A stretch of DNA of 64,000 nt from Planctomycetia bacterium (GTDB taxonomy: Bacteria; Planctomycetota; Planctomycetia; Pirellulales; Thermoguttaceae), in assembly GCA_030537455.1 (NCBI GenBank), contig JAUNMR010000018.1, positions 1 to 64,000 of the forward strand. The letters run 5' to 3'. Below the pieces are notes generated by a model that was given only the letters and a program-made list of their open reading frames with translations, had not been told where the DNA came from and did no database searches. Positions 8,387 to 8,663 of the stretch are shown piece by piece; position 1 is the first letter of the stretch, and each line of letters starts with the position of its first letter. The position numbers and the translations under genes are program-made.

Positions 8387-8421
8387 AAAAAAAAAGCCCC
8401 GCGTATCGTCGCAGGGCTTTT
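8387..8421 (-). terminator. Attenuator terminator in the aroF leader
   Basis: Read on the minus strand, AAAGCCC (8420-8414) pairs with GGGCTTT (8399-8393), plus an inner GCG/CGC stem, followed by nine T (8395-8387). It lies about 70 nt before the aroF start and after the leader peptide, on the same strand. No other gene on that strand ends here, so it acts inside the aroF transcript. Confidence 0.85.
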
Positions 8422-8493
8422 ACTTCTTGTTCCATCAGACGTCTTTTTAGACTAACTCAAAAAGAGCGCTCTAGCAAAAGCGACAATACGCAA
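8401..8493 (-). promoter_or_regulatory. Antiterminator and alternative pairings of the aroF attenuator
   Basis: Three leader segments can pair in mutually exclusive ways. Segment 2 (GCGUAUUGUCGC, 8491-8480) is complementary to segment 3 (GCGACGAUACGC, 8412-8401) at 12 of 12 positions, one being G-U. Segment 3 is the inner stem and loop of the terminator. Segment 1 (UACGCAA, 8549-8543, just before the Tyr codon run) is complementary to UUGCGUA (8493-8487) inside segment 2. A ribosome stalled on the Tyr/Phe codons would cover segment 1, free segment 2 and break the terminator. Confidence 0.72.
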
Positions 8494-8569
8494 CCATCTT
8501 CATACCGCGCCAAAAGCGGTAGAAGTAAAAATAGTAGTAATATTGCGTAAAGTTTTGAACGCTAGGCAT
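8471..8569 (-). CDS. Aromatic leader peptide of the aroF attenuator
   Basis: A 32-codon frame from ATG 8569 to TAG 8471. Thirteen of 32 residues are aromatic: seven Tyr, five Phe, one Trp. Residues 10-17 are YYYYFYFY, followed by RFW, so stalling would sense Tyr, Phe and Trp charging together. A weak GAGAG Shine-Dalgarno-like sequence precedes the ATG by about 9 nt. The start lies about 60 nt after a predicted promoter and its stop about 50 nt before the terminator hairpin. The layout is that of leader peptides such as E. coli pheL. The peptide itself probably has no function beyond its translation. Confidence 0.82.
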   Translation of the reverse strand: MPSVQNFTQYYYYFYFYRFWRGMKMVAYCRFC

Positions 8570-8635
8570 TTGCTTGCTCTCTATAACGATTCGACGACGC
8601 GCCGAACCGCTGTGTCTCTTCTATCAACTCTCCTC

Positions 8636-8663
8636 ATTATGACGTGAAGAACCAAAACGTCAA
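8636..8663 (-). promoter_or_regulatory. Sigma70-like promoter of the aroF leader
   Basis: On the minus strand TTGACG (8663-8658), spacer 16, CATAAT (8641-8636); each hexamer matches 5/6. The predicted transcription start is near 8629, about 60 nt before the leader peptide ATG. Confidence 0.65.

Follow-up and report, generated by a model that had tools for sequence, protein, structure and literature searches.

A probable ribosome-mediated transcription attenuator with an aromatic-rich leader peptide upstream of the DAHP synthase gene aroF in a gut planctomycete

The minus strand of the window (the whole 64-kb stretch of DNA analysed here) carries aroF, a gene for DAHP synthase, the first enzyme of aromatic amino-acid synthesis, and upstream of it all the elements of a leader region: a promoter, a 32-codon open reading frame, four RNA segments with the potential to form alternative helices, and a terminator with a run of nine T residues (Table 1). 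The host is a gut planctomycete. We found no second DAHP synthase in its genome and none of type II; a second match, with 34% identity, was taken as KDO8P synthase. In type I-beta DAHP synthases such as that of Thermotoga maritima, the ferredoxin-like domain mediates inhibition by Tyr and Phe, and by analogy an inhibition of the present enzyme through this domain would match the codons found in the leader. Contamination of the assembly was considered as a source of the locus and rejected, the adjacent hydrolase and sugar isomerase/HAD gene being syntenic in congeners at 63-71% identity.

Table 1. Coordinates of aroF and of the elements of its leader region, given as positions in the window
Feature	Position	Strand	Basis
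aroF, type I-beta DAHP synthase with N-terminal ferredoxin-like domain, 335 aa	7312..8319	-	PF00793 2.9e-77, PF18152 1.8e-21, NF006421 1e-144
Intrinsic terminator, 12-bp stem (8421-8392) and nine T (8395-8387)	8387..8421	-	pattern scan, folding
Segment 3, GCGACGAUACGC, terminator core	8401..8412	-	pairs with segment 2
Leader peptide frame, ATG, 32 codons and stop, MPSVQNFTQYYYYFYFYRFWRGMKMVAYCRFC	8471..8569	-	ORF list
Segment 2, GCGUAUUGUCGC, inside the end of the leader frame	8480..8491	-	12/12 with segment 3
Regulatory codons 10-20, YYYYFYFYRFW	8510..8542	-	aromatic run conserved in relatives
Segment 1, UACGCAA	8543..8549	-	7/7 pairs with UUGCGUA 8493-8487
Promoter -10 hexamer, CATAAT	8636..8641	-	pattern scan, 16-nt spacer
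Promoter -35 hexamer, TTGACG	8658..8663	-	pattern scan

The promoter (TTGACG-16-CATAAT) matches the consensus at 10 of 12 positions, and five congeners carry TTGACA, a spacer of 16-17 nt and (C or G)ATAAT (11/12 matches) 90-97 nt 5' of the leader start. Although its Shine-Dalgarno sequence (AGAGAG) is weak, the short leader frame is predicted to be translated, and it is rich in codons for the products of the regulated pathway, 10 of 11 consecutive codons being aromatic. The duplex of segments 2 and 3, with one G-U among its 12 pairs, has a free energy of about -22 kcal/mol, and the terminator stem one of -19.3 kcal/mol; since the 2:3 antiterminator overlaps the 3:4 stem, the two structures are mutually exclusive, as is characteristic of attenuators of the trp/phe type. 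From the nine-T run to the aroF ATG (8319) is 68 nt. An earlier note, made from the sequence alone, had described this promoter, a frame with YYYYFYFY followed by RFW, segments 1 to 3 with the 1:2 and 2:3 pairings, and a nine-T terminator about 70 nt before aroF; we recovered each of these on the minus strand, with the pairings as described there, and our results support its interpretation as an attenuator as largely right.

The aromatic leader is far beyond chance. Its own codons provide the only 11-codon stretches with at least 8 Phe, Tyr or Trp codons in all six frames of the window (maximum 10/11), and in 2,000 dinucleotide shuffles of the upstream 450 nt no stretch of 10 codons contained more than 7 aromatic ones, as against 9 observed. 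The leader RNA, moreover, folds better than all 200 of its shuffles (z = -4.1).

Nor is the leader confined to this locus, being one of a large and apparently uncatalogued set of aroF leaders. Regions upstream of aroF homologues were gathered from the genus, from named genomes and from a sample of Bacillota. Frames with at least 6 Phe, Tyr or Trp codons in 10 precede 7 of the 11 congeneric aroF genes, none of the 11 falling below 5, and 75% of the 77 further close aroF homologues, as against 2-3% of shuffles; among these close homologues the aromatic frames occur in Bacillota, Lentisphaerota and Spirochaetota (Treponema). Conservation upstream of related DAHP synthase genes, for which the earlier note had proposed to look, is therefore found. 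A U-tailed terminator separates leader and gene in 74 of the 78 leader-bearing relatives. A minority of close relatives is without an evident leader, and within the Bacillota sample leaders are scarcer below about 56% AroF identity. What the related leaders share is composition (F 17.3%, Y 15.9% and W 0.5% of residues), not sequence. The aromatic run is followed by segment 2 after a median of 17 nt (65 relatives), a spacing that would approximate the downstream footprint of one stalled ribosome.

Because the leaders are too divergent for alignment in columns, pairing was assessed by comparing each segment with its own partner and with partners swapped between loci. Segment 2 pairs with its own segment 3 at -17.6 kcal/mol and with swapped ones at -12.4 kcal/mol (65 loci; z = -14; 0/20,000 permutations); an unrelated control, the region upstream of the leader, gave z = +0.5, and composition controls, in which one partner was reversed or shuffled with its base composition kept, gave z = -2.4 to -3.5, the reversed sequences standing at -2.8 and -3.5. 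The corresponding family-wide value for segments 1 and 2 is z = -8.2, and within the genus these segments change together, from UACGCAA:UUGCGUA to UACGCGA:UCGCGUA (L005) and UACGCGC:GCGCGUA (L007). One congener, L005, has a weak 2:3 helix (-9.8 kcal/mol). Further, the reading phase of UUGUCGC, a part of segment 2, is the same in L001, L003 and L005 but differs from the one that L004, L006 and L007 have in common; the RNA of segment 2 is thus kept across different reading phases, which argues that it is the RNA, and not the peptide, that is selected there. The parts of the element, its pairing potential and its conservation and covariation across phyla are observed directly, and the comparisons indicate that both the 1:2 and the 2:3 helix, whose covariation the earlier note had suggested checking, are maintained by compensating change across diverging sequences.

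In the mechanism that we infer, from the translation of the leader through stalling and termination to the size of the response, RNA polymerase would transcribe the leader with a ribosome following on the 32-codon frame. With charged Tyr-tRNA and Phe-tRNA at hand, the ribosome would reach the stop codon and cover segment 2 (8491-8480), segment 3 would pair with segment 4, and transcription would end at 8387-8392. Should Tyr-tRNA or Phe-tRNA be scarce (or perhaps Trp-tRNA, which has one codon), the ribosome would stall on codons 10-20 and thereby open the 1:2 hairpin, whose loop and arms contain these codons; segment 2, so exposed, would capture segment 3, the terminator would be blocked and aroF would be transcribed. 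The transcript as far as the 3' limit of segment 3 was folded with a ribosome placed at each codon in turn. With the ribosome stalled anywhere up to codon 22, the 2:3 helix is formed (P 0.94); once it stands between about codon 25 and the stop codon, this helix is lost and the terminator remains, and in this model it is clearly the presence or absence of a ribosome on segment 2 that would set the outcome. Without a ribosome, folding to segment 3 prefers 2:3 over 1:2, and the full-length fold contains 1:2; a shut-off without translation, with 1:2 as the 'off' device, is therefore not supported by equilibrium folding, and the 1:2 hairpin may have a kinetic role. The earlier note had proposed folding the leader with and without a stalled ribosome; the calculated energies do not show the 1:2 hairpin blocking 2:3 in ribosome-free RNA.

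Taken together, we hold it to be very probable that the aroF leader region is a ribosome-mediated transcription attenuator of the trpL/pheL type. A complete promoter-frame-terminator unit is also what a stand-alone small RNA or small-protein gene would present, the terminator then being that gene's own and the aromatic peptide, which could be expressed, functional in itself, for example in the membrane. We judge this most unlikely, given that the leaders have only aromatic richness in common and no sequence, that at their C-terminal end the RNA persists across changes of reading frame, that the element sits before DAHP synthase genes of two families and, in a Phe version, before the pheA of the genus, and that the peptide has no Pfam or NCBIfam match. 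Were a T-box or some other ligand-binding RNA in control of aroF, the aromatic frame would be incidental. Aromatic genes of Firmicutes are known targets of T-boxes, and trpE of this same genome is preceded by one, but no Rfam regulatory family, the T-box included, reaches its threshold at the leader or elsewhere in the window, or at aroF in 20 relatives and 20 Bacillota loci, and the stem I specifier and GGUGGNACCGCG antiterminator of the T-box (RF00230) were not found at aroF and are present at trpE, which leaves this explanation with hardly any probability.

It has been shown that leader peptides near start codons can increase the translation of the following gene (PMC4833913), and the aroF leader might act by translational coupling or re-initiation and not by transcription termination. 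Here, however, the stop codon of the leader is about 150 nt from aroF with the U-tailed terminator in between, and that terminator recurs in relatives (74/78), so that coupling, too, appears very improbable beside transcription attenuation.

The pheA gene of this genome has a Phe-rich leader of its own (MTTNVFSFTEFFWFSFTMTP; L118:2610-2548, G000 contig C6), with a terminator and a 16-bp 2:3 helix that differs in sequence among six congeners with its complementarity kept. In subclade 1, to which the window belongs, trpE is present in 6/6 genomes and pheA lies elsewhere in the genome behind its own leader; upstream of trpE a T-box exceeds the Rfam threshold in three genomes, including this one. 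The control of these neighbouring pathway genes, by a leader at pheA and a T-box at trpE, fits an attenuator at aroF. We also observed a Phe-rich leader and terminator at pheA in five congeners (L119, L121, L122, L123 and L125), and UGG (Trp) at the specifier position of the trpE T-box (L114:1087-1347, G000 contig C40; also L113 and L115). A survey from 2008 had no T-box in the one planctomycete genome that it covered (PMC2494555).

In subclade 2, the gene that comes after aroF, on the same strand, is pheA, and the aroF leader contains Tyr and Phe codons and no Trp codon; trpE was not found in any of the five genomes (G008, G009, G010, G015 and G017). Across these genomes a Trp codon is present in 9/10 leaders where trpE is present and in 0/5 where it is absent, a correlation that is suggestive only, because just about three lineages are involved. 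The earlier note had Tyr, Phe and Trp all sensed. From the codon content we predict that mainly Tyr and Phe are sensed; sensing of Trp would be weak, considering the single Trp codon, the rarity of Trp in related leaders and the T-box that trpE has of its own. Four further congeners (G002, G007, G014 and G018) are without this aroF and have a type I-alpha DAHP synthase behind pheA, each of these operons (L192-L195) being headed by an aromatic leader of about 50 aa (type RYFTRFAWYYYAKF) with a terminator. Three of the four operons have a membrane-protein gene ahead of pheA, and L194 has about four copies of a direct repeat, GCAAGATTTTGTATGTTTCT, that lie just after the leader terminator and before the operon. 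At tyrA (14 loci) no leader at or above the threshold was found, except for one doubtful frame.

As to the gene itself, AroF of the genus was nested in Bacillota in a quick tree of 107 rows, and a tree of 43 rows with an AU test, which was without proper outgroups, remained compatible with a grouping with planctomycete AroF. These earlier trees, with poorer outgroups, were ambiguous; a careful tree of 61 rows, with outgroups, covers the other genera of the family together with Bacillota at 52-62% identity. In it the genus AroF has that of gut Clostridia as its neighbour (99/95), the two lying within a Bacillota-rich clade (97/97), and the other genera of the family, at about 50% identity, form a different AroF clade (100/100). 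The position beside gut Clostridia makes horizontal transfer likely; the aroF of the genus is of the Clostridia type and was probably acquired in this way.

In other planctomycete genera the AroF is a different one, controlled by leaders of the type YFWFYFSPPGRGAGGG. For this native planctomycete AroF (L196-L253, from other genera and families), an aromatic-rich frame is present in 41 of the 57 complete upstream regions; 39 clear cases with a terminator, out of these 57, were kept as the planctomycete-type set. Their consensus is Y(F/Y)WFYF(S/T)PPGRGAGGG, Trp occurs in 34/39, usually as one codon, and the 2:3 swap test gives z = -6.4 (reversed control, -1.5). Within a sample of the phylum, aromatic frames also precede the closest AroF beyond the order. 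A second planctomycete AroF paralogue was without a leader in 18/18 cases; the generalization that ordinary planctomycete aroF is leaderless was discarded, as it is true of that paralogue only and the other has leaders. The terminators of the genus resemble the planctomycete set (9/9) but its segment 2 resembles the Bacillota set (9/9), so that its leader may be the resident planctomycete one or may have come with the Clostridial gene. On one tentative reading, which we consider possible though on balance doubtful, a resident planctomycete attenuator would have outlived its gene. Ancestral planctomycetes would then have controlled their own AroF with a Phe/Tyr/Trp leader; a Clostridia-type aroF (in sister lineages, type I-alpha) would have replaced the gene, the leader being kept or rebuilt; and the Trp codon of the leader would have been lost where Trp synthesis was lost.

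With E. coli trpL and pheL the present element has in common a leader rich in the regulated amino acid, alternative 1:2, 2:3 and 3:4 helices and a U-tailed terminator before the first gene; it differs in that the entry enzyme, DAHP synthase, would be controlled, with mainly Tyr and Phe sensed together, and in that segment 2 falls within the last part of the leader frame. Against Rfam Phe_leader (RF01859) the aroF leader scores 24.5 bits (threshold 55) and is thus not a member of that family, the proposed mechanism being the same; all its Rfam matches are below threshold, and no Rfam attenuator was found at aroF in the loci scanned. The closest published elements are C. glutamicum aroR and Acholeplasma uORFC-13-1. 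The Corynebacterium glutamicum aroR leader, a leader peptide with Phe-Tyr-Phe upstream of the DAHP synthase gene aroF, is reported to confer attenuation that responds to Phe limitation (Neshat et al. 2014, as given in PMC11802643; PMC4046766) and, according to the review that cites this work, shows no response to Tyr; it belongs to Actinobacteria, has far fewer aromatic codons and compares with the present leader by function only. The uORFC-13-1 motif, as described in PMC8632094, is a candidate uORF that contains one or more Phe codons, is accompanied by a terminator and occurs before aroF only, with a proposed mechanism; its 24 representatives come from Acholeplasma and environmental sequences only, and in that description it is unreported from Planctomycetota, Lentisphaerota, Spirochaetota and Clostridia. 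The His leader peptides before hisS in bacilli, Firmicutes leader-peptide attenuators that replace T-boxes, differ in amino acid and gene, and the main text of their report does not include aroF (PMC2965389). Our search of the open-access literature found no aroF attenuator for Planctomycetota, Lentisphaerota or Spirochaetota, in agreement with the earlier note, which knew of no such element described in planctomycetes; the genus does not stand alone there, however, since other planctomycetes carry their own version. The switch is classical, and what is new, within the open literature, is the phylum and an informative evolutionary setting.

For Planctomycetota, these findings provide a complete and testable aromatic circuit, with leader peptides at aroF and pheA and a T-box at trpE. 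They also reveal widespread DAHP synthase attenuators, with no Rfam family in the loci searched. Of their two types of leader, one is that of Bacillota, Lentisphaerota, Spirochaetota and the present genus; the other, of planctomycetes, ends in PPGRGAGGG. Three different DAHP synthase lineages have come under this same control or stayed under it, so that the evolution of an attenuator after replacement of its gene becomes testable in existing genomes.
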